This document shows, in pieces, positions 4,211 to 24,954 of a DNA stretch of 37,310 bases. This stretch comes from Bacteroidales bacterium UBA4284 (GTDB taxonomy: Bacteria; Bacteroidota; Bacteroidia; Bacteroidales; UBA932). The translations under genes were made by a program, and so were the position numbers. The notes below the pieces were generated by a model that worked only from the letters and a program-made list of their open reading frames with translations, ran no database searches and was not told where the DNA came from. Position 1 is the first letter of the stretch. Each line of letters begins with the position of its first letter. The DNA is taken from contig DGVM01000114.1 of the NCBI GenBank assembly GCA_002395925.1, positions 1 to 37,310 on the forward strand, in the 5' to 3' direction.

Positions 4211-4218
4211 TAATTTTG
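4211..4218 (+). promoter_or_regulatory. Promoter -7 box for the AraC-type regulator
   Basis: TAATTTTG matches TAnnTTTG exactly within an AT-rich gap (4191-4230). It lies 51 nt before the GTG start at 4270. A TTG at 4184-4186 is a possible but poorly spaced -33 element. Confidence 0.5.
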
Positions 4219-4269
4219 CATTTAGGTCCGGCGTCAAAACCGGTCCAGGATAATTTCGGCCAGATAAAA

Positions 4270-5136
4270 GTGCTAAAAGGTTTCAAACTTCCCGGTTGGG
4301 TCCTTCCCGCCATCATAGCCATCCCGATGGTTGCTTCCGCAAACGGCGGAGGCAGCCAGAATCTGGATACCGAGATTGCCCGGGAAGCTTTCGCCGTCGG
4401 CGATTACGTCCTGATGCAAAACGAGTTGGACAAACTCTACCGCGACTGGGGAAGGGATACTCTGCGGCTCCGCTATGCCGACGCCCTGCTCCTTCAAAGT
4501 CAGGCGGCCGAGTCTCTGGGAGACCAGGCGGAGAGTCTTGAGTATCTCAAGCGCTACAGCTCTCTCAAAGACACCATCTTCGACAGCCACAACCGCTTCG
4601 CATTCGGAGTTTTTGTCATAATGATTCTCCTTCTCGCTCTTATCGCACACATAATATCGGCGCAGGAGACCATGCTCAAAAAGAACGAGTCACTGTCGAA
4701 ACTGCTCTCTGAGACAATGGCTTACAAGGAGAAAGAATCTGCAGAACAAGAGCGCGACGAGCCCTCGACGGGTTGGCCCGACATTCAGGAGATGAATCCG
4801 GAAGAGCTGTACCTTTTCCTGAGCAAGGCAATTACCCGCGACAAGCTGTTTCTCAATCCAAACTTCGGCCGTCAGACCCTCATGGACGACTACTCCCTGA
4901 GTAAAGAAAGGATAGGCAAGGCGTTCTCCGCGTACGGAACTTCCCTGCCCCAATTCATCAATACATGCCGTTTGGAATACGCTTGCAGCCTCATGAAGAG
5001 GGAGCGCGCCATGAGTGTGACTGACGTAGCTTCAGCCTCCGGATTCACCACCCGCGAATCTTTCAGCCGCAGCTTCAAGCAGCAATACGCCCTGACTCCT
5101 ACGGAGTACAAAGAGAATTTCGAGACCTCCGACTGA
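4270..5136 (+). CDS. Membrane-spanning AraC-family transcriptional regulator with periplasmic helical-repeat domain
   Basis: Starting at GTG 4270 the product is 288 residues; the in-frame TTG at 4216 overlaps the promoter box and is unlikely. Residues 1-25 (VLKGFKLPGWVLPAIIAIPM...) form a signal peptide or first membrane segment. Residues about 30-105 look like TPR-type helices (REAFAVGDYVLMQNELDKLY, then ADALLLQSQAAESLG). A clear membrane span, FAFGVFVIMILLLALIAHII, is at about 110-130, followed by a charged linker. Residues about 190-285 are an AraC-type double helix-turn-helix (TLMDDYSLSKERIGKAFSAY; RAMSVTDVASASGFTTRESF; SRSFKQQYALTPTEY). The layout suggests a one-component sensor that detects an envelope signal and binds DNA directly. 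The paired direct repeats at 5246, 5969, 8483 and 11249 have AraC-like spacing, so I infer that it may control the downstream units. Confidence 0.82.
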   Translation: MLKGFKLPGWVLPAIIAIPMVASANGGGSQNLDTEIAREAFAVGDYVLMQNELDKLYRDWGRDTLRLRYADALLLQSQAAESLGDQAESLEYLKRYSSLKDTIFDSHNRFAFGVFVIMILLLALIAHIISAQETMLKKNESLSKLLSETMAYKEKESAEQERDEPSTGWPDIQEMNPEELYLFLSKAITRDKLFLNPNFGRQTLMDDYSLSKERIGKAFSAYGTSLPQFINTCRLEYACSLMKRERAMSVTDVASASGFTTRESFSRSFKQQYALTPTEYKENFETSD

Positions 5137-5245: not shown

Positions 5246-5283
5246 GACGATTTGTTACGCCGTCAAAGACAAATTGACGCGCA
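5246..5283 (+). promoter_or_regulatory. Orphan paired direct-repeat operator (site D)
   Basis: GACGATTTGTTACGCC (5246) and GACAAATTGACGCGCA (5268) are 22 bp apart. They match the paired sites in front of 6066, 8603 and 11348, although the first copy is degenerate. The other sites have a -7 box 68 bp after the first copy; here that point (5314) has none. The sequence runs straight into a truncated GLUG gene, which suggests that the promoter and 5' gene part were deleted. Confidence 0.5.
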
Positions 5284-5322
5284 CTCTTCTTTGTCCTTCT
5301 TTCAAGATTTCCGACAGGCGTC

Positions 5323-5736
5323 GTGGGCACCATGAACTCACTGGTCGAAATCGACGGCTGCATCAACCGGGGAAAAATCACCGGCAACGATGAGGTAGCT
5401 TCCGACTGCCGTCCCGCAGGAATCGTATCCGCAATGGGCAACAACACCAAAATCACGAACTGCACCAATTACGGAGACGTTGTTTACGCTGTCGCCAACA
5501 GCACCAAGGGACTGGCCGCAGGAATCGTCGGACAGACGAACGACGGCAAGAAGTTCACCGTAATCGAAGGCTGCGCGAACTACGGAGCCATTCTTTCCGA
5601 TATGTTCAAGCATCCCGACAGCGATTACTCCGTGGTAACCATTACAGCAGACAACTTCGAGCAGTACATCTGCATGGAGCCCGACGCAAGGAAGGCTAAC
5701 GTCACCTTCGAAGGCAACGTGTTCGGAAGCCTGTGA
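5323..5736 (+). pseudogene. Truncated GLUG-repeat protein (C-terminal remnant)
   Basis: The frame is open from 5278 and holds about 137 codons from GTG 5323, or an ATG at 5332. It has no signal peptide or N-terminal module. Its sequence has GLUG-type beta-helix turns of the kind found in the larger lipoproteins downstream: EIDGCINRGKITG, AGIVSAMGNNTKITNCTNYG, AAGIVGQTNDGKK and VIEGCANYGAILS. It ends with a tail (ADNFEQYICMEP...) that corresponds to the NFMDYIG and NFLNYIG tails at the ends of the 23211 and 24955 proteins. It therefore appears to be the last quarter of a once-larger paralogue. Operator site D lies just upstream but no promoter box remains. Expression as a small cytosolic protein cannot be excluded. 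Confidence 0.65.
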
Positions 5737-5752
5737 TTCCGTAAGCGTTATT

Positions 5753-5818
5753 TAACGGCATCTGTCCCGTCACAAGCGCGGTCTTCCGTGTCTTATGACG
5801 GGATATTTGTTGCCGTTA
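5753..5818. repeat. Nested inverted repeat (possible terminator or element end)
   Basis: The outer arms TAACGGCA (5753-5760) and TGCCGTTA (5811-5818) and the inner arms TCCCGTCA (5765-5772) and TGACGGGA (5796-5803) are each perfect. Their centres lie within 2 bp of each other, giving one long imperfect hairpin. It follows the stop of the GLUG remnant by 17 nt. No strong U-run follows, so termination is only possible. Confidence 0.5.
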
Positions 5819-5868
5819 CGGTACGGTTATTCTTTGCCGAGGAGCTCTTTGCATTTTTCTGTAACCGG

Positions 5869-5951
5869 AGGTCCAAGAGATGGACCGTCGGCCACAGAAA
5901 AAGGCGGGAATTGGCGATGAAGGTCCAAGAGATGGACCGTCGGCCACAGAA
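5869..5951. repeat. Two identical 31-bp direct repeats
   Basis: Copies at 5869-5899 and 5921-5951 are identical and separated by 21 bp. Each contains the inverted repeat GGTCC-AAGAGAT-GGACC followed by GTCGGCCACAGAA. The motif ACCGGAGG occurs at the left edge of copy 1 and again just after copy 2. The function is unknown; two copies are too few for a CRISPR array. Confidence 0.7.
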
Positions 5952-5968
5952 CCGGAGGCGCTATGTCA

Positions 5969-6006
5969 GACAAATTATCACACACGGGCCGACAAATTGC
6001 GCCGTA
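5969..6006 (+). promoter_or_regulatory. Paired direct-repeat operator (site A), GDPD-GlpT unit
   Basis: GACAAATTATCACACA (5969-5984) and GACAAATTGCGCCGTA (5991-6006) are exactly 22 bp apart. The first copy starts 68 bp before the -7-like box at 6037, the same distance as at sites B and C. The two-turn spacing is typical of AraC-type dimers on direct half-sites. Confidence 0.6.
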
Positions 6007-6036
6007 GCACGAACCAAATGAACGCTCAGGATTGTC

Positions 6037-6044
6037 TAAATTAG
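6037..6044 (+). promoter_or_regulatory. Promoter -7-like box for the GDPD-GlpT unit
   Basis: TAAATTAG is one mismatch from TAnnTTTG, 22 nt before the ATG at 6066. Its position relative to operator A (68 bp from the start of the first repeat) matches the better boxes at 8551 and 11317. Confidence 0.5.
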
Positions 6045-6065
6045 CATCCGTAATATTACTAAACC

Positions 6066-7034
6066 ATGAAAAGAGCACTTCTGCTATTAGCCATCCTCGC
6101 AGGCGCCGCCTCCTGCACCACAAATCAGGCGTCAAAACAAACGTTCAACAGGGCCGAGGCCATCGCCGCCCAAATTCATAACCCGGACAGCAAGTATGTC
6201 GTCGTTGCAGTGCATCGCGGCGACTGGCGCAACTACCCCGAAAATTCCATTCCCGCAATCGAGAGCGTCATCCGCATGGGTGCCGACATCGTGGAGATCG
6301 ACGTACACATGACCGCCGATTCCGTACTGGTCCTCTGCCATGACGGCGACGTGCTGCGCACCACCAACTTCTCGAAAGTCTTTAAGGACTCTCCCGGCAA
6401 GAGTGCCCGCATCTCCAACCTCACTCTGGACGAGATAAAGCGGCTCAGCCTCAAGAGGGCCCACGGTGTAGCCATCGACACCCTGCGCATGCCCACTCTG
6501 GAAGAAGCGCTGATGTGCACAAAGGACCGCATCTGCGTAAACATCGACAAGGGCTATGACTACTACGACGCGGCCCTCAAGATTACAGAGAAACTTGGCG
6601 TCACCGACCAGGTCCTCATCAAGGGCAAGAAGCCCATCGAGGTCGTTGCCGAACACGAGGCACCCTACCCTCACAACATGATGTACATGCCCGTCGTGGA
6701 CATCCAGAAACCCGGCGGCAAGAAGCTCTTCAATTCCTACCTGGAGCAGGGCGTCGTCCCTCTCGCTTACGAGGTATGCTGGCAGAACAACGACGATACC
6801 GCATTTGAGGACGCCTGCGAAGCGATTATCGCCCAAGGCTCCAAAGTCTGGGTCAACACCATCTGGGCCAGCCTCTGCGGAGGTGACGGCAACGACGACG
6901 ATGCCGCATTCCAGGAAGAGGACCCCGGAAAGGTTTACAGGCAGTATATCGACGCCGGAGTAAGCATGTTCCAGACCGACCGCCCCGAACTTCTCATCGG
7001 CTGGCTTACCAAGATAGGCCGGCATACCCTCTAA
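6066..7034 (+). CDS. Glycerophosphodiester phosphodiesterase family lipoprotein
   Basis: This 322-residue protein has a lipoprotein signal (MKRALLLLAILAGAASC, Cys17) and a GDPD-type TIM-barrel. Catalytic signatures are AVHRGD with His50, ENS with Glu59, EIDVHMTADSVLVLCHDG with Glu78, Asp80 and His92, and a C-terminal MFQTDRPELLIGWL segment typical of the family's last strand. Known members hydrolyse glycerophosphodiesters to sn-glycerol-3-phosphate plus an alcohol; some act on teichoic acids or related phosphodiesters. It should sit in the periplasm or on the outer membrane. The next gene, a GlpT-like antiporter, starts 13 nt later, so the pair would release and then import G3P. Operator A and a -7 box precede it. 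No small peptide gene precedes it, unlike the Mfa-like lipoproteins. Confidence 0.88.
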   Translation: MKRALLLLAILAGAASCTTNQASKQTFNRAEAIAAQIHNPDSKYVVVAVHRGDWRNYPENSIPAIESVIRMGADIVEIDVHMTADSVLVLCHDGDVLRTTNFSKVFKDSPGKSARISNLTLDEIKRLSLKRAHGVAIDTLRMPTLEEALMCTKDRICVNIDKGYDYYDAALKITEKLGVTDQVLIKGKKPIEVVAEHEAPYPHNMMYMPVVDIQKPGGKKLFNSYLEQGVVPLAYEVCWQNNDDTAFEDACEAIIAQGSKVWVNTIWASLCGGDGNDDDAAFQEEDPGKVYRQYIDAGVSMFQTDRPELLIGWLTKIGRHTL

Positions 7035-7047
7035 GCCATAACGAACG

Positions 7048-8460
7048 ATGAAGATACTGGATTTTTACCGCATCAGTCCCCCGTCGGCCGCCAAGGTCGC
7101 CCCGGAAAAAACTGACAAGACATACAAGAGCGCCAGGATGCAGACCTTCGTAGCTGCAACCCTGGGATACGCACTTTATTACGTCTGCCGCCTGTCGATG
7201 GGCGTCATGAAGCAGCCCATCATCGACGCAAGCCTGCTCAACGCCACCCAGCTTGGTATCGTCGGCGCATGCCTCTACTGGACCTATGCCGTGGGCAAGT
7301 TCGTCAACGGTTTCCTGGCCGACAACGCCAACATCAAGCGTTTCATGGCTACCGGCATCATCATTTCCGTGGCCATGAACTTCATAATGGGAGTCCTGGG
7401 CGTGAGCGCACTCAACGGCACAATAGCCAACGGCGCACTGTTCATCGCCTTCTGCTTTTTCTGGGCAATCAACGGATTCGCCCAGTCGATGGGAGCTCCC
7501 GCCAGCATAGTCAGCCTCTCACGCTGGTTCCCTCTCAAATCCCGTGGCACATTCTACGGCATCTTCAGCGCCTCGCACAACATCGGCGAGGGCCTTTCCT
7601 TCATCTTCGTAGGCTCCATCGTAGCAGCCTTCGGCTGGAAATGGGGATTCTTCGGAGCGGCGCTTGCCGGCCTGCTTGGGTTCGTGCTCGTGATGCTGCT
7701 GTTCCACGACAATCCCGACAGCAAGGGTCTGCCGCCCATCGAAGTCCTCTCGGGCGAGAAGACGCAGGAAGAGTACGACGCCACCCACGAAAGCGAAGCG
7801 CTTGCGGCCAAAGATGCGCAAAAAGCCCAGCGCGAAGAGACCAAGCGCATGCAAAAGGCCGTCATCAAGAACCCCGGAGTCTGGATTCTGGCCCTTTCGA
7901 GCGCATTCATGTACATGAGCCGTTACGCCATCAACGAATGGGGAACCATCTTCCTGCAGGAAGCCAAGGGCTACGACCTGGCAGGGGCCGCCGCCATCAT
8001 CGGCGTCAATCCCATATTCGGCATACTCGGAACCGTGGTTTCCGGCTGGCTGTCGGACGTCCTGTTCAAGGGTGACCGCAAGTATCCGGCGTTCGTCGCC
8101 GGGCTGCTCGAGAGCATCGCCCTCGCCCTCTTCCTCTTCGGAGGTCCGGCAAAGTGGGTCAACATCCTCGCAATGGTACTCTTCGGAATAGCCATCGGCG
8201 TACTCATTAGCTTCCTTGGCGGACTGATGGCAGTCGACCTCGTACCCCGCAAGGCCAGCGGCGCCGCACTCGGAATCGTCGGCATCGCATCTTACGCCGC
8301 GGCGGGCCTGCAGAATATCGTCACCGGCCTGCTGCTCGACAGCAACACCGTAAACGGAGTACACGATTTTACCTACGTCAGCTGGTTCTGGCTCGGAGCC
8401 GCGATAATCTCCTGCCTCCTCCCCATCCTCAACTGGAAACGCAAGCAGCAGGTCATATAG
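7048..8460 (+). CDS. glpT: MFS organophosphate:phosphate antiporter, GlpT-like
   Basis: The 470-residue polytopic protein resembles the GlpT/UhpT (OPA) branch of the major facilitator superfamily. After a 30-residue cytosolic start come hydrophobic spans such as FVAATLGYALYYVCRLSMGV, a GKFVNGFLADNANIKRFMATG loop like the family's conserved loop 2-3, a central charged linker (about 230-275, rich in Glu, Ala and Lys) and a second six-span half including LGTVVSGWLSDVLFKGDRK. The family exchanges glycerol-3-phosphate or hexose phosphates for phosphate across the inner membrane. The partner GDPD gene 13 nt upstream favours G3P as substrate, so glpT is used, but substrate specificity is inferred only from context and overall similarity. 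Confidence 0.82.
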   Translation: MKILDFYRISPPSAAKVAPEKTDKTYKSARMQTFVAATLGYALYYVCRLSMGVMKQPIIDASLLNATQLGIVGACLYWTYAVGKFVNGFLADNANIKRFMATGIIISVAMNFIMGVLGVSALNGTIANGALFIAFCFFWAINGFAQSMGAPASIVSLSRWFPLKSRGTFYGIFSASHNIGEGLSFIFVGSIVAAFGWKWGFFGAALAGLLGFVLVMLLFHDNPDSKGLPPIEVLSGEKTQEEYDATHESEALAAKDAQKAQREETKRMQKAVIKNPGVWILALSSAFMYMSRYAINEWGTIFLQEAKGYDLAGAAAIIGVNPIFGILGTVVSGWLSDVLFKGDRKYPAFVAGLLESIALALFLFGGPAKWVNILAMVLFGIAIGVLISFLGGLMAVDLVPRKASGAALGIVGIASYAAAGLQNIVTGLLLDSNTVNGVHDFTYVSWFWLGAAIISCLLPILNWKRKQQVI

Positions 8461-8482
8461 GTTCATGTCAGGCCCGCTCTAC

Positions 8483-8521
8483 GACAAATTGATACACAGG
8501 CAGCAGACAAATGGTCACGCC
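8483..8521 (+). promoter_or_regulatory. Paired direct-repeat operator (site B)
   Basis: GACAAATTGATACACA (8483-8498) and GACAAATGGTCACGCC (8506-8521) are 23 bp apart. The first copy starts 68 bp before TATTTTTG at 8551. It resembles sites A and C in both sequence and geometry. The 142-nt gap around it (8461-8602) holds no other gene. Confidence 0.65.
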
Positions 8522-8550
8522 CTGCATTCATACGCGCACAATCAAATGAC

Positions 8551-8558
8551 TATTTTTG
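8551..8558 (+). promoter_or_regulatory. Promoter -7 box for the 8603 peptide-lipoprotein unit
   Basis: TATTTTTG is an exact TAnnTTTG match, 45 nt before the peptide ATG. No TTTG -33 element is evident, which fits a promoter that needs an activator bound at site B. Confidence 0.6.
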
Positions 8559-8602
8559 ACAGCCAAACGCTTTTGAAACAACACGAAACTAAAAATATTA
8601 TC

Positions 8603-8743
8603 ATGCAAACGATGAACTACATCTCACCACTCTGCCGCATCATCCACGTCAAGATGGATGGTGTGCTGATGAACTCCGGTTTCTCCACTAACACGGAGGC
8701 GTTTAATGTTAATTCGGCAGAAGAATCTGATGACTGGATCTAG
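8603..8743 (+). CDS. 46-residue peptide of the Y-x-x-P / C-terminal W family (P1)
   Basis: This unrecognised small protein starts MQTMNYISPLCRIIHVKMDG and ends AEESDDWI. An ATG at 8612 could also be the start. It has no signal peptide or membrane segment. It is judged real because its stop is 4 nt before the ATG of a lipoprotein gene, it follows a good promoter box, and three similar peptides (11348, 24807, 27928) occupy the same position before other Mfa-like or GLUG lipoproteins. All four share Tyr-x-x-Pro near the start, a Leu-rich middle with a Ser, and an acidic end with a Trp in one of the last three positions. Possible roles are a leader peptide for translation control, an exported peptide or a chaperone-like partner; none is proven. 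Confidence 0.65.
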   Translation: MQTMNYISPLCRIIHVKMDGVLMNSGFSTNTEAFNVNSAEESDDWI

Positions 8744-8747
8744 GGCT

Positions 8748-11003
8748 ATGAAAAAGACGACTAAAATAATCGGCCTCGCATTTTTGGCCGCACTGCTTTT
8801 CTCTTGCGAAAAGAATGACATCATTGGAGACAACACTGATATAACCCAGTCAACTGACGGCAATCTGCTTACCAGCTTCGGAGCTGTCATCGAGGGAGCC
8901 TCCGCAGATGCAGCGACGAAGGTTTCTGTAGACCTCGGCGAAGGGACAACCACAATCGAGACGGATGATGAGGTCCTTGTTTTCGTCGACGAGGACAATA
9001 ATGCAATTTACAAGTACGACGGAACCGAGTTCGTGCTCAAGGAAGGCGAAACCGCAGTTTCCCTCAGCGGCACTGTGAGCGTGTTCTACCCGGCAAGCGA
9101 ATATGTGGTTTCCGGGTCTGATGTTCTGTTTACAATGCCCGCAGCCATCGAGGCAAGCGATGATTTCGGTGCCATCAACCCGATGGCCGGCATCATCACC
9201 GGTAGCGCAGGTTCCTATAGCGTAACACTTTGCAACCTGATTTCTGTGCTTCGAGTGAAGGTTACGGCAGATGTTGACATCAATTCCGTGTCGCTTGATT
9301 TTGGTTCGAAAGTCATTGCCGGCGGGTCAAAGTATAGCGTTGACGCTTCTGCCTTGGAGATGATTTTCTCTGCTGGATCCGCCTCGGAGACCGAAGAGGT
9401 TTCACTTGGGACACCGGCAACATCGGCCGACGTCCTGTTCCTGATTCCTGCCGGGATTGACCTTACAGGAGGCCTCACTTTAACGGCCAATCTGGCCGAA
9501 AATCACAACGGCGGCACCGACACCTTCTCCGTAACCAACCCCAGCACTGCCGCCCGCGCCCGGAACACCATTGCCACCATGTCCTTCTACGCCGGCCTCT
9601 TCAGCGGCGGCGAGGGCTCCAGCGAAAGCCCTTACCTCATCGCCAATGCCCGCGACGTAAAGAACATTCAGAAGTACACGACAGCTGGCTATGAGAGCAT
9701 CGCGGCTGCCGATTTCCTTGCTGCCAATTATCAGCAGACTGAGGATATCAGCGCCGGTTCCGTTACTCCCATAGGCACCAGCGACGCTCCTTTCACCGGC
9801 GTTTACGACGGCAACGGCAAGACGCTCAACGTCACAATCTCCACAACCGCTGACAATACCGGCGTATTCGGATACCTTCAGGATGCCACTGTTAAAGACC
9901 TGACCGTTGCCGGTACGGTTACGTCGAGCGGCCAGTTTACCGCAGGTATTGCAGGGCAGATGGCAGGAACCAGCAAAATCTCCGCTTGCACAAATAAAGC
10001 TGCGATAACAAACACGAACTCAAGCAATGCCTACGGTGCCGGCATCGTGGGAAGGGCACTTGGTACAAGTGAAATAGTTTCTTGCGTAAATGAAGGTGTT
10101 ATCAAGGCCAGCAAGGCTTTTGCGGCAGGTATCGTAGGAGATATGACCGGCACCATCGACATGTGCGTAAATAAAAACACAGTCACCGGAGGTGCAAACA
10201 CAGGCGGCATAGCAGGTGCTCTGAGGGCAAGCTCAACCATAAGAAGATGCTATTCCTCCAAGAGCAAAACGATTACCGGGACAAACCGTGTGGGTGGAAT
10301 TGTAGGATATAATGTAGCCGGAACCGTTGCCAACTGCTTCTCCAATTCCAATGTCACAATTTCTTCAAATACTGCTGATTACGGTGCCGGCGGCCTCGTA
10401 GGTATTCTCGGCGGACTGCTCTTCAACAGCGCAACTGGTGATATTACCGTAAAATGTTCTGCATCTTGTACCGATAAGACTAAAGCAGTTGTCAATGTCG
10501 GCGGACTTGTAGGACGTCAGACCGGTGGAACAATTCAGAACGTCTATTCACCTCTCTATGCAAAGGATATCAAAATCGGCGACATTCACGGCAGGTCCGG
10601 CTCCGGCAAAATTGGCCAGATTGTGGGTGTCGTCGCATCGGGAAACCTTTGCGCCTACTATTTCGGAGGATGTGCGACTGCAACCACCGGATGGCAGTAT
10701 TGGGGAACCAACAGCGGCTCCAATAATAATGAAGGCCAGTGGGCTTTCACTTCCGCTAACAATGTCTCCATGGATTGGACTTCCGCCGTAGCAAAGGCCT
10801 TCTCCGGTTTCGAGGTGACTTTAGCCTCCGGTGAGTACCATCTTAAAGATGTACTGAATGTCGACAAGTCCAGCGGCTCATTGTATTCTGCCTACACTCC
10901 TGTAGAGGGCGAGGTCATTACCTGGTCCGATTTGAGCGCCGCGGATTTCCATCCCATTCCCGATGCCCTTATGGCTCTCGGAACGGCTTACTACAGCGAA
11001 TAA
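8748..11003 (+). CDS. Mfa-like / GLUG-repeat surface lipoprotein
   Basis: The protein is 751 residues from ATG 8748, where a lipoprotein signal begins (MKKTTKIIGLAFLAALLFSC, Cys20); an earlier in-frame ATG at 8706 lies inside the peptide gene. Residues about 25-285 resemble the fimbrillin-like (Mfa-like) beta-domain, with ATKVSVDLGEG, TDDEVLVFVDEDN and VFYPASEY. Residues about 290-640 are a run of GLUG-type turns (TAGIAGQMAGTSKISACTNK, AAGIVGDMTGTIDMCVNK, VGGIVGYNVAGTVANCFSNS, VGGLVGRQTGGTIQNVYS), predicted to form a beta-helix. Residues about 640-751 form a C-terminal cap ending ALGTAYYSE. It is expected on the outer membrane as an adhesin or binding protein; no enzyme motif was seen. Peptide P1 is 4 nt upstream and a terminator follows at 11027. 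Confidence 0.82.
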   Translation: MKKTTKIIGLAFLAALLFSCEKNDIIGDNTDITQSTDGNLLTSFGAVIEGASADAATKVSVDLGEGTTTIETDDEVLVFVDEDNNAIYKYDGTEFVLKEGETAVSLSGTVSVFYPASEYVVSGSDVLFTMPAAIEASDDFGAINPMAGIITGSAGSYSVTLCNLISVLRVKVTADVDINSVSLDFGSKVIAGGSKYSVDASALEMIFSAGSASETEEVSLGTPATSADVLFLIPAGIDLTGGLTLTANLAENHNGGTDTFSVTNPSTAARARNTIATMSFYAGLFSGGEGSSESPYLIANARDVKNIQKYTTAGYESIAAADFLAANYQQTEDISAGSVTPIGTSDAPFTGVYDGNGKTLNVTISTTADNTGVFGYLQDATVKDLTVAGTVTSSGQFTAGIAGQMAGTSKISACTNKAAITNTNSSNAYGAGIVGRALGTSEIVSCVNEGVIKASKAFAAGIVGDMTGTIDMCVNKNTVTGGANTGGIAGALRASSTIRRCYSSKSKTITGTNRVGGIVGYNVAGTVANCFSNSNVTISSNTADYGAGGLVGILGGLLFNSATGDITVKCSASCTDKTKAVVNVGGLVGRQTGGTIQNVYSPLYAKDIKIGDIHGRSGSGKIGQIVGVVASGNLCAYYFGGCATATTGWQYWGTNSGSNNNEGQWAFTSANNVSMDWTSAVAKAFSGFEVTLASGEYHLKDVLNVDKSSGSLYSAYTPVEGEVITWSDLSAADFHPIPDALMALGTAYYSE

Positions 11004-11026
11004 TCGTATAGCTATATTATCCCCCT

Positions 11027-11058
11027 GCAGCCGCCCAGAAATGAGCGGCTGCTTTGTT
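11027..11058 (+). terminator. Hairpin terminator after the 8748 lipoprotein gene
   Basis: A perfect 8-bp stem, GCAGCCGC (11027-11034) with GCGGCTGC (11045-11052), encloses a 10-nt loop and is followed by TTTGTT. It lies 24 nt after the stop codon. Confidence 0.7.
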
Positions 11059-11060
11059 AT

Positions 11061-11248
11061 CATTCCTCACCTTCAAGTGCTACGCAAAAGCACCGGAGGG
11101 TAGAGTGCCTTCGGAAGGCATTGGCCCTTACGAACTGCCTTCCGAAGGCACTCCGGCCGGAGGCGCGGGGAAGGCGAGGAGATTTTCGGCTACGCTTCGC
11201 TCGGAATGACAGCAAACCGTCCTTTACTCAGCCCGCTTGGTGTTTTTC
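11061..11248. other. Gene-free spacer with a long inverted repeat
   Basis: The 344 bases between the 8748 gene and the 11348 peptide contain the terminator, an 18-bp inverted repeat (11103-11153), a stretch CGGCTACGCTTCGCTCGGAA (about 11187-11206) of low-complexity appearance, operator C and a promoter box. A 64-codon frame at 11121-11315 crosses these elements and shows no protein-like features. Confidence 0.6.
11103..11153. repeat. 18-bp perfect inverted repeat
   Basis: GAGTGCCTTCGGAAGGCA (11103-11120) and TGCCTTCCGAAGGCACTC (11136-11153) are exact reverse complements around a 15-nt loop. Each arm is itself almost palindromic (GCCTTC-G-GAAGGC). There is no U-run, and it sits about 100 bp upstream of operator C. 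Confidence 0.75.
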
Positions 11249-11286
11249 GACAAATTGTCACTCCGTTTCGGATAAATGGTCACACC
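11249..11286 (+). promoter_or_regulatory. Paired direct-repeat operator (site C), SusCD unit
   Basis: GACAAATTGTCACTCC (11249-11264) and GATAAATGGTCACACC (11271-11286) are 22 bp apart. The first copy starts 68 bp before the TAAATTTG box at 11317. These are the clearest copies of the repeat in the window and precede the roughly 20-kb SusCD gene run. Confidence 0.68.
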
Positions 11287-11316
11287 TATTATTACGCGAG
11301 TGCGCGAGGGGGTGAC

Positions 11317-11324
11317 TAAATTTG
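11317..11324 (+). promoter_or_regulatory. Promoter -7 box for the 11348-31208 gene run
   Basis: TAAATTTG matches TAnnTTTG exactly and lies 24 nt before the peptide ATG. No TTTG -33 element is visible where operator C ends. Confidence 0.62.
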
Positions 11325-11347: not shown

Positions 11348-11470
11348 ATGAAACAAACGTATCAGCGCCCAGAGGTATGTGAAGAAACTAATCTTCCCTG
11401 CCTCGCATTCCTGGAAGCCGCATCAGGCAGAATCCAGGATTACGAAGAAATCCCCGACACCTGGAACTAA
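11348..11470 (+). CDS. 40-residue peptide of the Y-x-x-P / C-terminal W family (P2)
   Basis: This unrecognised peptide starts MKQTYQRPEVCEETNLPCLA and ends DYEEIPDTWN. The start at ATG 11348 gives the MK(Q/S)-type N-terminus shared with the 24807 peptide and follows the promoter box by 24 nt. It is acidic, has two Cys (residues 11 and 18), and has no signal peptide. Its stop is 12 nt before the start of the 1356-residue lipoprotein gene. It is the first gene behind operator C, so if it acts as a leader peptide it could influence the whole downstream run. The function is unknown. Confidence 0.65.
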   Translation: MKQTYQRPEVCEETNLPCLAFLEAASGRIQDYEEIPDTWN

Positions 11471-11482
11471 CATCAGACCGCA

Positions 11483-14400
11483 ATGAGAAAGACAACAGCA
11501 CTTGCGGCAATGTTAGCCGCGGCCGCCATCCTCGCAGGATGCAAGAAAGAAACGCCCGAACAGGTAATCACCCCGGCAAAGGAAATCAAGACCGTCCTTA
11601 CGGCAGACCTCCATCCCTTGACAAAAACGGCAATAGACGGAGTCAAGGTCAGCTGGAGCAAGGACGACGCAATCGGCGTCAACGGCAGCACGTCCGAGCC
11701 ATTGACGGAAGCAGCGGAAAAGGCCGACTTCAGCTTCACGGACGAACTCACGGCACCGTTCAAGGCAGTATATCCCGCGGCGCTTTACAAAGACGCCACG
11801 ACCGTAACGCTCCCCGCCACATGGGACGGCACAAACGCCCCCACTCCCCTCGCGGCATACGCTGAATCAGGCACCGGACTCGGATTCGCTCCCCTCACCT
11901 CCCTGCTCAAGCTCCAGGTCACAGGAGGCGCCCAGGTCCTCAAGCTGGTCAGCGTAACAGCCATCGGAGGCGAAACACTCAGCGGCGACTTCACGCTCGA
12001 CTACAGCACCCTTGAGCTCACCCCCGCAGAAGGCGGAAGCAACAAGGTCACCGTAGAGAGCGGCGCAACGCTCGGCACCGACCCCGTCACCATCTACGTT
12101 CCCCTCCCCGCCGGAGAATATACACAAGGCCTCCAGATTGATTTCGAGACCGAAGACGGCAGCACGATGCGCAGGGCCCTCAGCGCCCGTACGCTCGCAG
12201 CCGGAACGCTCCGCAGCCTTCCCGCACTCGACTTCGGCGGCGCCAAGGGCATCATGTCCGCAGCCGACTTCGCAGCCTTCGCAGCCGCAGTCAACGCAGG
12301 CGAATCAACCGAACCCTGGGAAAATTCCGAAGGCGTAGTCAACCTCCTTGCAGACATAGATTTCACCGGCGTCACTGACTGGACCCCTGTAGGAAACGCC
12401 ATAGCCCCTTGGGCATCCTATAATCCCCAGGTCACTGAAGGCCATCCATTCCTCGGCAAATTCGACGGCAACGCCCATCATATCAAGAACCTTCACCTCG
12501 TCTGCAACGAGACCACCGCAGGCAAACACTTCGGCCTCTTCGGCTACGTAGGCCCCGGAGCCCTCGTGCAGAACTTTGTAATCGAAGACAACTGCTCGCT
12601 GACCGTCAGCACCAGCGTATCCCTGAGCGCCGGCATGATAGCGGGCGTCGTTTATGACGGTCAGGTACGCGACATCACCAGTTACGCCACCATGACCTAC
12701 AACGGCGGAGCCACCGGCCTGCTGCATATGGCACTCATCGGCGGCGTCTATGCCAAGGACCAGGGAGTAACCGTCGACAGCGTCCACAACAGGGGCGCAA
12801 TCACCTGCGTCAACACAAAGAATATGAATGCAGGCGCCACAGGCATCCATATCGCAGGTATAGTCGGATTCGCAAATGCCCCTTCAGGCAACACCAAGCG
12901 CATAAAGATTGCCGATAGCAACAACTACGGCGACATGACTTCCCAGGCAGGCCGCACCTCCGGCATCGTGGCGGCGGCCAACTCCTGCACCGACATCACC
13001 GGATGCGAGAATCACGGTGACCAGCTGAACACGATGGCAAGCAAAGGCGCCGGCCGTCTGGGCAACATCACCTGCATCACCGCCAACGGCTCCACGATGA
13101 CCCGCTGCAAGAACTACGGCAACCTGATTTCAACCACTGAGGCCCGCGTAGGCGGCCTGATTTCCCTTCCCAACGCCCCTGGTGCAACTTACTCCATGTG
13201 CGAAAACTACGGAGAAGTCCTCTCAGACAGCCAGTATCGCGGCGTCTTCTTCGGATACATCAACCAGGACTGCACCTGGAGCAACTGCCACGCGTCCGGA
13301 AAGGTCGGCAAATACAACAACGGTACGCCCGAATACGACCTCTACAGCGAGGCAACCAAGATCAACTACCTCGGTCCCAACACGGCAAACGCCGGAACCT
13401 ACACCAACATCACTTACGACATCATCACAGGTGAGAAACCGGTCGCGAACCTCGACGTCGACGCCGACTTCCGCATGTTCTTCATCGGCAACAGCTTTAC
13501 CAAAGATGCAGTGGAGCACCTGCCCGGCATACTCGCCGCCGCCGGCCTGAACAAGGTCCAGATGGTCCATATGTACTACGGCGGGCGCACCATACCCGAA
13601 TACAACAACGGCTGGAGCACTGTCAGCGACTACCACTGCTATCTCTGCAATCCGGGTGAAACCAGCTGGACCGATCTCAGCGGCTATACCCTCAGCCAGA
13701 TTGCAGCAAGCCAGAAGTACGACATAGTAACCGTCCAGGAGCACACCGGCAGGCTGCTTGCATGGGGCTGGACCAACAATGAGAAGGCCGCCGTGCAGGG
13801 CATAGTCGCCAAAATCAAAGAGGCCCAGACCTCCATCGGCGGCAATCCCAAGCTCTACTATATCCTTTCCCAGGCATATCACGACCTGTCCAAGGCAGAA
13901 AATGTTTCCAAGCCCTTTACCGACCAGGCCGGTATGTGGACTGTCATCTCAGCACAGGCAAAGACTGCGGTCGAGACCTGCGGATTCGACGGAGTAATCT
14001 CCACCGGAGCCATGCTTCAGAACCTTCGCACGTCCAAGCTGAACAACGACATGGGCCTCACACGCGACGGCTACCATATGGACCTCGGAATTGCCCGTTA
14101 CGGCGCTTCCTGCACCGTATTTGAAACCATAATCGGTCCCTTCAACGGCAATCTCAAACTCGACACCAACTCCTACCGTTACAGCGCAGACGGAACTCAC
14201 GTAACCGACGCCAACGCCCCTGTGGCTCTCCAGGCCGCACGCTACGCAATCGCCAATCCTTACACGGTGACCGACATGACAGGCATCGGCGGCGATGACA
14301 CACCCGTCGAGACCAAGAAAATCAGCATCTCCAATGCAGAAGAACTGCTTGCATTCGCAGCAAGCGTAAACAGCGGCAATGCTGAAGCCATCAGTGCAGA

Positions 14401-15553
14401 AGTCACCCTTACCGCCGACATCGACTGCTCATCCATAACAGACTGGACCCCCATCGGACAATGCACACTGTCCACCTGGACCGGAACGTCGATCACCGTC
14501 TCCGGGAACATCTTCAACGGAAGCTTCGATGGCCAGAACCACACCGTCAAGGGGCTCAGGATGTCCTTCGCCCCTACACAGGCCAACTCTGTCTGCGGAT
14601 TCTTCGGAGGAATTGGCGACGGAGCAACCGTGAAGAACATCACCTTCGATTCCACATGCTCCATGAACATCTCCACCGGAGTGGCAGGATGCTTTGGAAC
14701 GCTTGCAGGGCTCGTAAGGGGGGCCACTATCGAGAACGTCAAGAGCTATGCTCCCATAACCGGCGGCGGAACTTCGTCGCTGGCCGACAACGTAGCTGCC
14801 GGCAGGGTTGCAGTGGGCGGTCTCGTCGGCTGGGTACACCCTTCAACCAAGAACGCGACCCTCACAGGACTGTATAATGCCGGAGCGCTCGGCACCCAGG
14901 AGAGCCCGTTCTCCCGCGGAGCCAACACAGGAAACGGCGGAAACGGCGTCCATCTGGGAGGCATCGCAGGCCTTTCGACAACAGTGGGCAGTGCCATAAC
15001 CACGACCTTCACCAACTGCGTAAACGACGCCGACATATACAGCACCGCCGGACGCACGTCCACCATCGTTGCCGGATTGCAGCAATATACCATTCTTAAG
15101 AACTGCACGAACAATGGAGACCTTCACTTTATGCAGTCAGGCGGTTACCGCATCGGCGGCATAACCTGCATCGCCGCCGTGGGCTGCCAGTTTGACGGAT
15201 GCGTGAACAAAGGCAACATCATCAGCCAGAGCACCAGTGCCGCCGGAATCGTATGCCTCATAAACCACGACAGCGTACAGATGAAGAGCTGCAAGAGCAT
15301 TGGCGCCGACGTGGTTTCAAGCAACTTCAACCTTTCCGGCAACCAGACCTACAACGGTGTGCTCTACGGACAGTGCGCCAAGAACAACGCAAAATTCTCC
15401 GACTGCTACATCAGCGGACGCGTCGGCAAATACAGCGCTTCCGGCACCGAGTATGTCACCCTCACCGCCGACAACTACTTCCAGTACGCGGGCCAGGCAA
15501 ACAGTTCCAACAGCACAATGACCACCGCGAATATCAAGTTCTACAGCGAATAA
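11483..15553 (+). CDS. Giant lipoprotein: Mfa-like, GLUG beta-helix, SGNH/DUF4886-type hydrolase, second GLUG beta-helix
   Basis: The protein has 1356 residues. The signal is MRKTTALAAMLAAAAILAGC with Cys20. Residues about 25-250 are a fimbrillin-like beta-domain (TKTAIDGVKVSWSKDDAIGV). Residues 258-645 are a first GLUG array that begins SAADFAAFAAAVNAG. Residues about 655-930 resemble the SGNH-hydrolase-like DUF4886 family: FFIGNSF with candidate nucleophile Ser671, TVQEH, and TRDGYHMD with Asp862 and His865 in a D-x-x-H arrangement. Residues about 947-1356 are a second GLUG array, beginning with the similar SNAEELLAFAASVNSG. Family members are presumed carbohydrate esterases, so this may be a deacylating enzyme held between two binding or adhesive helices at the surface. 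It lies 12 nt after peptide P2 and 21 nt before susC. The esterase activity is inferred, not shown. Confidence 0.83.
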   Translation: MRKTTALAAMLAAAAILAGCKKETPEQVITPAKEIKTVLTADLHPLTKTAIDGVKVSWSKDDAIGVNGSTSEPLTEAAEKADFSFTDELTAPFKAVYPAALYKDATTVTLPATWDGTNAPTPLAAYAESGTGLGFAPLTSLLKLQVTGGAQVLKLVSVTAIGGETLSGDFTLDYSTLELTPAEGGSNKVTVESGATLGTDPVTIYVPLPAGEYTQGLQIDFETEDGSTMRRALSARTLAAGTLRSLPALDFGGAKGIMSAADFAAFAAAVNAGESTEPWENSEGVVNLLADIDFTGVTDWTPVGNAIAPWASYNPQVTEGHPFLGKFDGNAHHIKNLHLVCNETTAGKHFGLFGYVGPGALVQNFVIEDNCSLTVSTSVSLSAGMIAGVVYDGQVRDITSYATMTYNGGATGLLHMALIGGVYAKDQGVTVDSVHNRGAITCVNTKNMNAGATGIHIAGIVGFANAPSGNTKRIKIADSNNYGDMTSQAGRTSGIVAAANSCTDITGCENHGDQLNTMASKGAGRLGNITCITANGSTMTRCKNYGNLISTTEARVGGLISLPNAPGATYSMCENYGEVLSDSQYRGVFFGYINQDCTWSNCHASGKVGKYNNGTPEYDLYSEATKINYLGPNTANAGTYTNITYDIITGEKPVANLDVDADFRMFFIGNSFTKDAVEHLPGILAAAGLNKVQMVHMYYGGRTIPEYNNGWSTVSDYHCYLCNPGETSWTDLSGYTLSQIAASQKYDIVTVQEHTGRLLAWGWTNNEKAAVQGIVAKIKEAQTSIGGNPKLYYILSQAYHDLSKAENVSKPFTDQAGMWTVISAQAKTAVETCGFDGVISTGAMLQNLRTSKLNNDMGLTRDGYHMDLGIARYGASCTVFETIIGPFNGNLKLDTNSYRYSADGTHVTDANAPVALQAARYAIANPYTVTDMTGIGGDDTPVETKKISISNAEELLAFAASVNSGNAEAISAEVTLTADIDCSSITDWTPIGQCTLSTWTGTSITVSGNIFNGSFDGQNHTVKGLRMSFAPTQANSVCGFFGGIGDGATVKNITFDSTCSMNISTGVAGCFGTLAGLVRGATIENVKSYAPITGGGTSSLADNVAAGRVAVGGLVGWVHPSTKNATLTGLYNAGALGTQESPFSRGANTGNGGNGVHLGGIAGLSTTVGSAITTTFTNCVNDADIYSTAGRTSTIVAGLQQYTILKNCTNNGDLHFMQSGGYRIGGITCIAAVGCQFDGCVNKGNIISQSTSAAGIVCLINHDSVQMKSCKSIGADVVSSNFNLSGNQTYNGVLYGQCAKNNAKFSDCYISGRVGKYSASGTEYVTLTADNYFQYAGQANSSNSTMTTANIKFYSE

Positions 15554-15574: not shown

Positions 15575-18500
15575 ATGATGAAAAAAATCTTAATCCTGCT
15601 GACGCTGCTCCTGCCGCTCTCCCTTAGCGCGGAGCTGCTGGCACAAACCCCGGCTTCCGTTTCCGGAACCGTGGTCGACAAGTTCGGAGAGCCTCTCGTG
15701 GGCGCCTCCCTCGTCGACAAGAGCGGCAAATACGCCCTCACTGACAATGAAGGAAACTTCACCCTGAGCGGCATCAGCTTCCCTGCCGACGTAACAATTT
15801 CATTCATCGGATTCGACGACAAGGTCGTCACCCTCACGGGTGCCGAGCCCAGCCCCTTCGTCATCACGCTCGATACCGAAAACACCATGCTGGATGAACT
15901 TGTGGTCGTAGGTTACGGCACCCAGAAGAAGGTCAACCTCACCGGAGCCGTCGGCGTCATTGACGGCAAGGAACTCAACGCCCGTCCCGTGACCAACACC
16001 GCCATGGCTCTCCAGGGCGCCGACCCTTCCCTCGTGCTCACTCAGACTTCCGGATCCCTCGACGGTACCAACTACAGCGTGAACATCCGCGGCAAGGTAT
16101 CGCTCAACAGCGGTTCTCCCCTTGTGCTCGTCGACGGCATCGAAGGCTCCCTCACCCAGGTGAACCCCAACGACATCGAAAGCGTGTCAATCCTCAAGGA
16201 CGCCTCCGCTTGCGCCATCTACGGCGCAAAGGCTTCTGCCGGCGTCATCCTCATCACCACCAAGAGCGGTCAGAGCGGAGACGCCAGGATTACCTACAAC
16301 GGCCGTTACAGCCTTTCGCAGAACACCACCAGCACCGACTTCATCACCGACGGTTACGACTATGTGACCCTCTGCAACAGCTTCTACCAGACCCTTGCCG
16401 GCGAAGGCGCATTCACCTACTCCGACGAGCAGATCGAGATGCTCAAGGAGCGCCATGGAGACGTCACCGAAGATCCTTCCCGCCCCTGGGTCATCCCCGA
16501 TGCCACGGGCACCAATACTTACGTTTATCTGGCCAACTTCGACTGGTACGACTTCCTGTTCAAGAAGACCCGTCCCGAGACCGAGCACAACCTTACGGTG
16601 CGCGGCGGCAACGACAAGGTAAAGTATTACGTATCCGGACGTTATCTCTATCGTGAGGGTGTATTCAACGGATATGCCTCCGACACATTCAACAGCCTGT
16701 CACTGCGCGGCAAGGTCGACGCCAAGATTACCTCCTGGCTCGATTTCTCCACCAACGTGAGCCTGCAGCGCACCGATTACGACTGGGGCGGGTTCTGGGA
16801 AATGGACGGCTCCACAGGACTCGTCAGCCAGGGCATCACCTGGAACATCACCCAGAACGTGAGTCCGACCTATGTGCCTTACAACCCCGACGGCACCATC
16901 AACATGGTACCGGGCTACATGACCGGCGCAACGTCACCCCTCATGAGCGGCCGTGTGGGTGTCTTCCTTTCAGATTCCAACAGCAACTCCAACGTCAACA
17001 ACTACTGGACCTGGACCAGCCGTCTGACCGCCCACATCGCGAAATGGCTTGACTTCAGCGCCGATTACACATATCGCCGCCGCGACCGCCAGTCCGCATA
17101 CCGCAGCAACCCCACACCCAACTGCTACGACAACGCGAACAAGAGGCTTTATCAGGGCAACGGCCTTTCGGGCGGATATTTCTCCAACGGTTCCGTCTAC
17201 GATTTCTATCGCGAGTACAACTACTATCAGGACGGCAACGTCGCCAACGCCTGGTTCAATTTCCACAATACCTTCGGCCGGGCGCACAACGTGTCCGCGA
17301 CCCTCGGCGCCAACTTTGACGATTATTACGGACGCAGCCTGACGATCCAGCAGAAAGGCTCCATGAGCGAGAACCTCGCATACATCAACATGGCCAACGG
17401 CGAAATCGAGAAGGCCTCCGGAAGCGTGTCCGCATACCGCACGCTCGGTTTCTTCGGACGTATCAATTACGATTACGACGGCCGCTACCTGCTCGAGCTT
17501 TCCGGCCGCTACGACGGTTCCTCACGCTTCCCGAAGGGCCATCGCTGGGGATTCTTCCCTTCCGCTTCCGCAGGATGGAGAGTCTCCGAAGAGCCTTTCT
17601 GGACCAACATTAAACCTGTAGTCAACAATTTCAAGATCCGTGCATCCTACGGTACCCTCGGCAACCAGCAGGTCGACAACTACTATTACTGGGATACCAT
17701 CAACACCGGTACTCTCAGCGGTTATACCTTCGACGGAGCCACTAAAGCAGGACAGGCTTATGCAAGTTCCCCCGTTTCCAGCAACCTCACCTGGGAGACC
17801 GTAATTTCCAAAAATATCGGCGTCGATCTCGGCTTCCTTCAGAACCGACTCTCCCTCACTGCCGACTTCTTCATCCGCGACACCAAGAACATGCTTACCG
17901 AAGCCATGACCCTGCCTTACGTCTACGGCGAAGAAGCCCCGAGGGAGAACGCAGCCGACCTTACCACGCGCGGTTACGAAATCGCAATCAGCTGGAAAGA
18001 CAACGTGAAGGTCGCAGGAAAGCCCATGTACTACGGACTTACCGCCACCCTGGGCGACTTCCGCACTTTCATCACCAGGTTCAACAACCCCGACAATCTC
18101 CTCAGCGACTACTATGTAGGCAAGGAACTCGGAGAAATCTGGGGCTACAAGACCGACGGTCTCTTCGCCACCGACGAGGAAGCCGCTGAATGGGAAGCCA
18201 CATACGATTCCTTCGGAACGGTAAACAAGGGCATCAAGGGCCAGGCGGCACCCTGGAACCACCTGATGGCCGGCGACATCAAATACGTCAATCTCGATGA
18301 CAACCCCGCCATCAACGCAGGAGCGAATACCCTTGACGACCATGGCGACCGCCTTGTCATCGGAAACAGCCTTCCCCGCTACAACTACGCATTCAAGGGA
18401 GATCTGAGCTGGGCCGGACTCGATTTGAGCGTATTCTTCCAGGGCGTCGGCAAGATGGACTGGATGCCTGCAGCCAACTGTATATACTACTGGGGCCCTT

Positions 18501-23190: not shown

Positions 23191-23210
23191 TCAACCCAAA
23201 ATTATTTTTT

Positions 23211-24803: not shown

Positions 24804-24806
24804 TTT

Positions 24807-24941
24807 ATGAAGTCCAACTATCAGACACCAAAGGCTGAGCTCGGAGAATTCTCTCCGGGCTTGAGCCTTCTGGAAGACTCCGTAAACATATCCGGCAGTA
24901 TCGATGACTTCGAACTCGTAGACGGTTCCTGGGACTATTAA
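24807..24941 (+). CDS. 44-residue peptide of the Y-x-x-P / C-terminal W family (P3)
   Basis: The unrecognised peptide begins MKSNYQTPKAELGEF and ends FELVDGSWDY; the middle carries LSLLEDSVNISGSIDD. It has a net negative charge and no signal peptide or Cys. The start ATG is 3 nt after the stop of the BACON-GLUG gene, and its stop is 13 nt before the next lipoprotein ATG, so the frame fills the gap between the two genes. The N-terminal Tyr-x-x-Pro and the terminal Trp-Asp-Tyr match peptides P2 (YQRP/WN) and P4 (YEMP/WDF). It was too short to be noticed by most gene callers. The role is unknown. Confidence 0.7.
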   Translation: MKSNYQTPKAELGEFSPGLSLLEDSVNISGSIDDFELVDGSWDY

Positions 24942-24954
24942 GCACTGTAAAGCA

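Follow-up and report, generated by a model that had tools for sequence, protein, structure and literature searches.

A tandem direct-repeat element as the putative operator of a membrane-anchored AraC-type regulator in uncultured Bacteroidales

Organization of the locus

The window, that is the whole 37,310-nucleotide stretch of contig DGVM01000114.1 from Bacteroidales bacterium UBA4284, an uncultured bacterium of gut type (assembly GCA_002395925.1), contains four tandem pairs of a 16-bp direct repeat and, upstream of them, the gene for a protein of 306 aa with an AraC-type DNA-binding domain (4216..5136; PF12833, HTH_18, E 4.5e-16), which is the candidate regulator. All features described here are on the plus strand. 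Pair A (5246..5283; copies 5246-5261 and 5268-5283) is degenerate and lies 3′ of the regulator gene. Pairs B (5969..6006; copies 5969-5984 and 5991-6006), C (8483..8521; copies 8483-8498 and 8506-8521) and D (11249..11286; copies 11249-11264 and 11271-11286) are the putative operators of a GDPD-GlpT unit, a GLUG unit and a DUF4886-SusCD unit, respectively.

Pair B is followed by a lipoprotein glycerophosphodiester phosphodiesterase (GDPD; 6066..7034; PF03009, E 2e-24, and PF16387; lipobox recognized by eye) and by a GlpT/UhpC-like organophosphate transporter of the major facilitator superfamily (7048..8460; PF07690), whose matches to TIGR00881, NF008661 and TIGR00712 are all under their own cut-offs. 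Pair C precedes a short, conserved leader open reading frame (ORF; 8603..8743, 46 aa) and a GLUG-motif lipoprotein (8706..11003; PF07581; start probably at 8748). Behind pair D there is a second short leader ORF (11348..11470, 40 aa), followed by a DUF4886 lipoprotein as the first large gene of its unit (11483..15553; PF16227), the adjoining genes for SusC (15575..18892) and SusD (18898..20733), both recognized by domain matches, and the remainder of the unit, the inferred extent of which is 20737..27866. This remainder includes a NAGPA phosphodiester-glycosidase protein (20737..23190; PF09992, E 4.6e-14) and a weak member of the endonuclease/exonuclease/phosphatase family (26904..27866; PF03372, E 3.3e-5, just under the cut-off). 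The locus has the adjacent SusC and SusD genes of a polysaccharide utilization locus; as regards glycan-degrading enzymes, its SusCD unit contains the NAGPA phosphodiester glycosidase domain, and no classical glycoside hydrolase was found among the 20 window ORFs scanned with Pfam.

The tandem pairs and their promoter boxes

The copies of pairs B, C and D begin 22, 23 and 22 bp apart, and the first copy begins exactly 68 bp before a box resembling TAnnTTTG in all three cases, just as the first-pass annotation had claimed; the fourth pair, A, is likewise degenerate and without a box. In Bacteroides promoters, according to two reports (PMC7366714, PMC12632263), the -7 element has the sequence TAnnTTTG and the -33 element the sequence TTTG. 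The boxes of pair C (TATTTTTG, 8551..8558) and pair D (TAAATTTG, 11317..11324) are perfect, while that of pair B (TAAATTAG, 6037..6044) is off by one base.

The claim of a 16-bp motif occurring as a tandem pair stood for the pairing and not for the single copy. The 16-mer GAYAAATKRTCACNCC was rejected as the unit of significance, having seven matches with at most three mismatches where 3.74 were expected, a number reached in 10 of 100 shuffles; the copy at 5991 is outside those seven and retains the GACAAAT half alone. Two GAYAAAT words at a spacing of 22 or 23 bp, on the other hand, are found three times in the window versus a mean of 0.002 in 1000 dinucleotide-preserving shuffles, two of which had one pair and none more than one. 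A weight matrix of the pair gave scores of 39.9, 39.6, 36.3 and 24.7 (the last for pair A) at the four window sites, three of which (B-D) belong to its nine training sites, as compared with maxima of 8.3-14.8 in six sequences generated at random by a first-order Markov model built on the window. Left out of the training one at a time, these three sites still scored 34.1, 33.9 and 26.7 (two halves summed). Just 5′ of pair B there is also a perfect 31-bp direct repeat (5869-5899 and 5921-5951, 52 bp apart).

The candidate regulator

The protein encoded at 4216-5136 consists of a hydrophobic N-terminal segment, a short and weakly TPR-like region, a membrane helix at about residues 128-148 and a C-terminal AraC-type double helix-turn-helix (HTH), the hydrophobic N-terminus and the membrane helix having been assigned by eye. 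The HTH match is over the cut-off of PF12833 and places the protein in the AraC/XylS family. In the predicted structure residues 191-300 have pLDDT values of 86-91 per block of ten, and the best PDB matches of the model in Foldseek were AraC-family domains at E 2.7e-3 or weaker, none reaching 0.001. The fold search thus backs the HTH half alone; since the N-terminal half falls below a pLDDT of 50 in places and matches TPR_16 at E 0.39 only, "TPR-like" is a weak label. Neither a kinase nor a receiver domain was seen among the Pfam matches up to E 5, and the best 25 of 28 NCBIfam matches were either AraC-type or unrelated. A plasmid search with the regulator returned 26 records, all below 60% identity and none covering 80% of the query.

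A search of a large protein database found 16 proteins, the first being that of the window itself, and the query and seven others were aligned. Scanning genome contigs with this alignment gave 13 loci, six of them with relatives of the regulator (L001-L006) and seven with remote AraC hits (L007-L013). The identity to the window's regulator over the best segment was 67, 67, 71, 49, 71 and 59% for L001-L006, all of which come from metagenome-assembled genomes labelled Bacteroidales or Bacteroidia. The relative at L006 (5810-6367; 185 aa, helix and HTH) has no periplasmic region. Because this locus nevertheless keeps the same operator, it may do without the sensor part or have another in its place.

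Co-occurrence of the pair and the regulator

The first-pass annotation had named two results that would speak against a shared operator, namely a pair scattered at random over the genome and a pair not conserved upstream of orthologous units in related genomes, and both were examined in the genomes of the relatives. The loose pattern GAYAAA-N16/17-GAYAAA, written from the window alone, was present in all six loci with a relative of the regulator (8 pairs in 87 kb) and in none of the seven loci with only remote AraC-type hits (123 kb); this 6/6 versus 0/7 is the unbiased figure. In the corresponding whole genomes, G001-G006 (1.9-2.6 Mb each), a strict pattern of the pair occurred 1, 3, 2, 2, 2 and 1 times, and its reversed form not once in any of the six, so that the pair is not randomly scattered. 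One of the three strict pairs of G002 (C5:93499; score 16.7, without a box) is probably a chance match.

Among 400 genomes of the genus of G002, the strict pair was found in 14, these being G002-G006 and nine others with one each, whereas the reversed control gave 12 matches in 11 genomes. When the proteins of 400 genomes of this genus, assumed to be the same draw as in the pair scan, were searched at E <= 1e-30, ten had matches: G002-G006 carry full-length relatives or, in the case of G006, an HTH match of 61%, and the other five have C-terminal matches of 38-43% in open frames of 557-599 aa and in every case lack the strict pair. The pair thus occurs in 5/5 genomes with a close relative of the regulator and in 9/395 without, a figure that is partly true by construction and not independent of the loose-pattern result, since the strict patterns were composed after the sites of L001-L006 had been seen. 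The nine background sites score 8.0-26.1 and seven of them lie within open frames of at least 160 aa; at L048, which scores 8.0, there is a -7-like box at 66 bp.

A second pattern of 35 bases, likewise composed after the sites of L001-L006 had been seen and allowing up to three mismatches, had seven matches in G001-G006 and none in its control. Six of these are at the regulator locus and one (G004:C65) lies 5′ of a gene for a calcineurin-like phosphoesterase; G002 contained no match. When 400 kb from G005, G001 and G002 were scanned with the matrix, four known sites and one shifted reading reached a score of 16, and no new site scoring at least 16 appeared. Five sites outside the training set that do not closely copy any of its members (L001:18681, L002:1610, L004:3997, L006:10431 and L015) scored 25.7-37.7.

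Conservation and turnover at orthologous units

The gene order around the regulator is largely shared among the relatives, with an M20 peptidase, the regulator, a GLUG lipoprotein, DUF4886 and SusC, and with GDPD and GlpT in some. The pair, predicted to be kept upstream of orthologous units, was indeed found before GDPD, GLUG, DUF4886 or SusC genes in relatives. A site precedes GLUG in the window, L001, L002, L005, L006 and L003 (the contig of the last ends within the gene start), GDPD in the window, L002, L004 and L023, DUF4886 in the window and L006, SusC in L001 and L005, and the regulator itself in L002 and L004. The operator thus keeps to the same genes while its exact place shifts, as is expected of a selected element. 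Near-identical equivalents of pair B are found at L002:4360 and L023:1529 (reverse strand), and L006 has equivalents of pair C (L006:7752) and pair D (L006:10431), the protein 3′ of the former being 75% identical to the window's GLUG lipoprotein.

The GDPD proteins of L002 and L023 are 99% identical to that of the window, and the stretch of pair B and GDPD is 96% identical at the DNA level. Right behind this gene both loci have a GlpT cut to its last 36 residues (L002:5419-5526, L023:363-470), which would point to a recent deletion or transfer.

In the window (with the degenerate pair A) and in L001-L005, the regulator gene has a pair no more than about 110 bp from its end or just 5′ of its start. 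As an intact operator sits at the same place behind the regulator in L001, L003 and L005, pair A is probably a vestigial or decayed operator at its usual position. The short GLUG-like ORF 3′ of it (5323..5736, 137 aa) resembles the window's GLUG protein weakly (35% over 69 aa, E 3e-6) and that of L002 at E 0.02 only, and is probably a gene remnant. Together, pair A and this ORF look like a decayed copy of the regulator-operator-GLUG arrangement, although the similarity of the ORF is weak.

Diverged regulators and their own putative operators

At a threshold of E <= 1e-25, a profile of the C-terminal half of the regulator found matches in 39 of the 398 genomes scanned from the family. Several of the diverged relatives have a different tandem pair, with a spacing of 21-23 bp, beside their stop codon, namely L027, L058, L066 and L067 (all of the CAATTCGTCC type), L059, L029/L061, L030/L062 and L071, and L057 has a weak one (21 bp, 12/16, box at 58). 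Each of the four genomes carrying a regulator of this type has exactly one CAATTCGTCC pair, while G002 and G005 have none; the control gave no match. Under a criterion of at least 12/14 identical bases no more than 160 bp after the stop codon, the 60 distinct regulator ORFs had a pair with a spacing of 22 bp in six cases, of 23 bp in one, and of 17, 20 and 31 bp once each, whereas the ends of 260 other ORFs, called mechanically and at least 250 aa long, had none at 22 or 23 bp and ten matches at other spacings. The scanned loci include the remote L007-L013. Four of the six regulators with a spacing of 22 bp form one group with near-identical operators (L027, L058, L066, L067), and the criterion misses the GACAAAT operators, the copies of which are less alike, as well as those of L030 and L057.

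Among regulators matching at E <= 5e-50, 15 of 19 have some pair beside the stop codon, counting the degenerate one of the window and the weak one of L057; no such pair was found for the closer regulators L056, L070 and L072, and that of L006 is 1.4 kb off. The 570-aa relatives (L031-L035, L039, L042) and L037 have no pair at 21-23 bp, L036 has a weak one (11/14) without a box that was left out of the count, and most regulators further out have no such pair by the same criterion.

Of 24 clade operators, chosen by the author as window pairs B-D and the non-redundant sites of the other loci, 15 have a -7-like box at a distance of 41-46 bp from copy 2; L027, L058, L066 and L030 are among the rest. 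The second recognition helix reads FTTRESF in the six aligned regulators with a GACAAAT-type operator, L006 included, and FAS(I/L)KTF in L027 and L058. The balance tips somewhat towards the window's regulator belonging to a clade of AraC-type membrane proteins without a kinase, found in uncultured Bacteroidales, of which most closer members would be encoded directly 5′ of a private operator. These operators would share a common grammar, with two copies in head-to-tail order spaced by 22 bp, in many cases a stretch with CGCG, and a -7 box at 64-68 bp, and their half-sites would vary by group together with the recognition helices. If true, the clade would offer a natural collection of regulators with mutually orthogonal operators, and an AraC recognition code could be derived from it. 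As several related regulators adjoin their own different operator, the neighbouring DNA can predict regulator-operator pairs, which are usable for testing which residues of the recognition helices set specificity; they are also a possible source of distinct inducible promoters for Bacteroidota, once their inducers are known.

Two further features were observed at these operators. A CGCG or GCGC word stands between copy 2 and the box in 14 of the 24, for example at 11286-11317 of the window, as against 0/16 and 1/20 other promoter-like boxes in the fetched DNA, a comparison in which the operators include related sites and the backgrounds are small; a -33-like TTG often falls inside this block (TTGCGCG). 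In L062 another pair, followed by a box at 64 bp, stands before the regulator gene itself (position 2487 of the reverse complement), and this diverged member of the clade is probably self-regulated.

Promoter geometry, interpretation and alternatives

Over 18 sites from the window and the relatives, a -7-like box with at most one mismatch lies 66-68 bp after copy 1 in 13, the other 79 offsets between 30 and 111 holding nine such boxes altogether, and the box is 44-46 bp from copy 2 in 13 of the 18. The copies are spaced by 21-23 bp, in agreement with the direct half-sites of AraC/XylS proteins (about 21 bp). Copy 2 ends a few bases 5′ of the expected -33 element, the TTTG of which, as judged by eye, is either missing from B, C and D or poorly matched there.

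We consider it quite probable that the pair is the operator of the membrane-anchored, one-component AraC-type regulator encoded at 4216-5136, and that this protein would activate the three units. A single regulator for the GDPD-GlpT, 8603 and SusCD units, as originally suggested, is the best reading of a pair that is nearly restricted to genomes bearing the regulator and conserved at the same units. The pair, its spacing, this near-restriction and the conservation were computed; that the protein binds, in which stoichiometry, that it activates instead of repressing, and what the inducer and the substrate are, is inferred.

Several observations weigh against this interpretation, in addition to the late origin of the strict patterns. 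Five of the 18 sites (window A, L001:18681, L002:519, L004:4970 and L015) have no box at 66-68 bp, that of L004:4970 being at 76 bp, and some of the 13 that do are not independent, window B, L002:4360 and L023 being close orthologues and L003 and L005 near-identical. Copy 2 of pair B is without the TCAC block, and pair A, at 24.7, scores no better than one of the nine background matches (L047, 26.1). No site before DUF4886 was found in L001, L002 or L005, and the nearest pair in L006 is about 1.4 kb behind the regulator.

The pairs could instead bind another regulator encoded elsewhere, such as a hybrid two-component system or a different AraC protein, with the 4216 gene merely nearby; AraC-type HTH domains are indeed common, as all of 101 genomes had some match to the regulator at E <= 0.001. 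This is nevertheless quite unlikely, given that the pair rises above background in the 400 genus genomes only where a close relative of the regulator occurs and adjoins the regulator in the window (in degenerate form) and in L001-L005. Moreover, diverged relatives have their own, different pair at the same place, in one case exactly once per genome, and no second DNA-binding domain was detected among the 20 Pfam-scanned ORFs of the window. There is a small chance that the same protein binds but acts as a repressor, or activates only some of the units: direct-repeat AraC-type sites can repress too, and the five sites without a box at the expected distance would fit. The sites, however, are positioned 5′ of the -33 region and not over the -7 box, and the poor -33 elements of B, C and D together with the spacing to the -7 box, fixed in 13/18, speak rather for activation.

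The remaining alternatives are far less credible. Pho-type boxes bound by a PhoB-like response regulator might be expected from the phosphate-related GDPD and GlpT and from TGTCAC-like words in the copies. Pho boxes, however, repeat every 11 bp; no copy at 11 bp can be read in A-D, for which the Pho reading was rejected, and the strict pair stays at background in the 395 genomes that lack any close relative of the AraC regulator. Two palindromic sites of an ordinary dimeric repressor are similarly improbable: copy 1 of pair D does contain a perfect palindrome of the 5-1-5 type, GACAAATTGTC, but this single copy is all that favours the reading, and position 9 of copy 1 is A in 6/9 and position 8 of copy 2 is G in 5/9 training sites. 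This reading was rejected as the symmetry is not kept across the training sites, and the half-sites of the diverged regulators are, by eye, not palindromic either. Hardly more plausible is chance, or promoter DNA copied by recent duplication rather than kept by selection. Copying would be favoured by the location of all units in one locus and by the 96% identity over pair B and GDPD, which implies that this stretch was recently shared with L002 and L023, but the flanks of B, C and D look unrelated by eye and the sites precede different genes (SusC in L001 and L005, DUF4886 in the window and L006); chance is excluded by the shuffled windows.

For the AraC-type regulator acting at the pair, the following mechanism is proposed. 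In each 16-bp copy, GACAAAT and T-C-A-C would be the two blocks contacted by the protein, a single AraC-type DNA-binding domain reading them with its two HTH motifs. Two monomers would be bound head-to-tail on one face of the DNA, two helical turns (22 bp) apart. Copy 2 ends a few bases 5′ of the -33 region, which is poorly conserved, and the distance to the -7 box is fixed, at 44-46 bp from copy 2 and 66-68 bp from copy 1. With this spacing the dimer on the DNA would contact RNA polymerase and act as an activator of the class II type. The regulator would sense a product on the periplasmic side, and the units under its control would be GDPD-GlpT, leader-GLUG lipoprotein and leader-DUF4886-SusCD, as well as, in some relatives, the regulator itself.

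Proposed function of the regulon, and the leader ORFs

The putative regulon combines SusCD with several functions related to phosphodiesters, i.e. GDPD, the GlpT/UhpC-like transporter, the NAGPA domain, the weak endonuclease/phosphatase-family protein and, in G004, the metallophosphoesterase. Judging from this gene content, as given by the domain names, the system probably takes up and cleaves phosphodiester compounds, either glycerophosphodiesters or phosphodiester-linked glycans. Scavenging of teichoic acid or glycerophosphodiesters may be suggested on the same basis; a published link of such a locus to teichoic acid was not found in the titles and beginnings of abstracts of the literature searched. 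Uncultured Bacteroidales would in this way gain a defined regulon, with a sensor-regulator, an operator, promoters and surface genes rich in phosphodiester-cleaving functions.

Leader ORFs of 40-49 aa stand first in the GLUG units and have the motif YxSP...G-LM-S...D-x-W-[FNI], while those of the DUF4886 units in the window and L006 end in DTWN. In the relatives they are located at L001:11023, L002:1725, L003:10987, L005:10987, L006:7867 and L006:10527, L006 also having an equivalent of the second leader ORF of the window. Since third-codon positions vary most in 14 of 15 pairs of GLUG leaders and in the one pair of DUF4886 leaders, the leader ORFs are probably translated. Those scanned against Pfam and NCBIfam had no credible family match, and the first leader ORF has two relatives in the database.

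Comparison with known systems

SusR motifs consist of copies 67 or 77 bp apart according to Ravcheev et al. (PMC3878776). The present system resembles SusR, as described there, in regulating SusC/SusD units and in a direct-repeat operator, and differs from it in the spacing of 22-23 bp. The HTH of SusR, moreover, is as far as is known not of the AraC type. For class II activators of the AraC/XylS family (AraC at araI1-I2, XylS, RhaS), the binding site consists of two half-sites in head-to-tail order at a distance of about 21 bp; each contains two contact blocks, and the downstream half-site adjoins the -35/-33 region. The element described here is similar in its head-to-tail half-sites of two blocks each and in the position of copy 2 near -33, but it belongs to a Bacteroidota -33/-7 promoter and to a regulator anchored in the membrane, and copy 2 is, by estimate, about 7-8 bp further upstream than araI2.

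There is also a close likeness to the AraC-type hybrid two-component systems (HTCS) of Bacteroides, the operators of which, according to Ravcheev et al. (2013; PMC3878776), are two direct copies on average 21 bp apart, of 12-16 bp in the examples, bound by a dimer on one DNA face and controlling SusC/SusD units. Judged against that account, the AraC-type DNA-binding domain, the direct-repeat operator (22, 23 and 22 bp here) and the control of SusC/SusD are common to both, and the matching spacing indicates a shared architecture rather than membership, since the regulator described here has 306 aa and no kinase or receiver domain was found in it. What is documented here, relative to HTCS, is the fixed distance to the -7 box. 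A kinase-less membrane AraC regulator with such operators was not found in the literature searched, in which the motif letters were not a search term and supplements were not covered. The direct-repeat AraC-type operator is of a known kind, which the predicted regulator-operator pair described here extends from HTCS to kinase-less, membrane-anchored AraC-type proteins.

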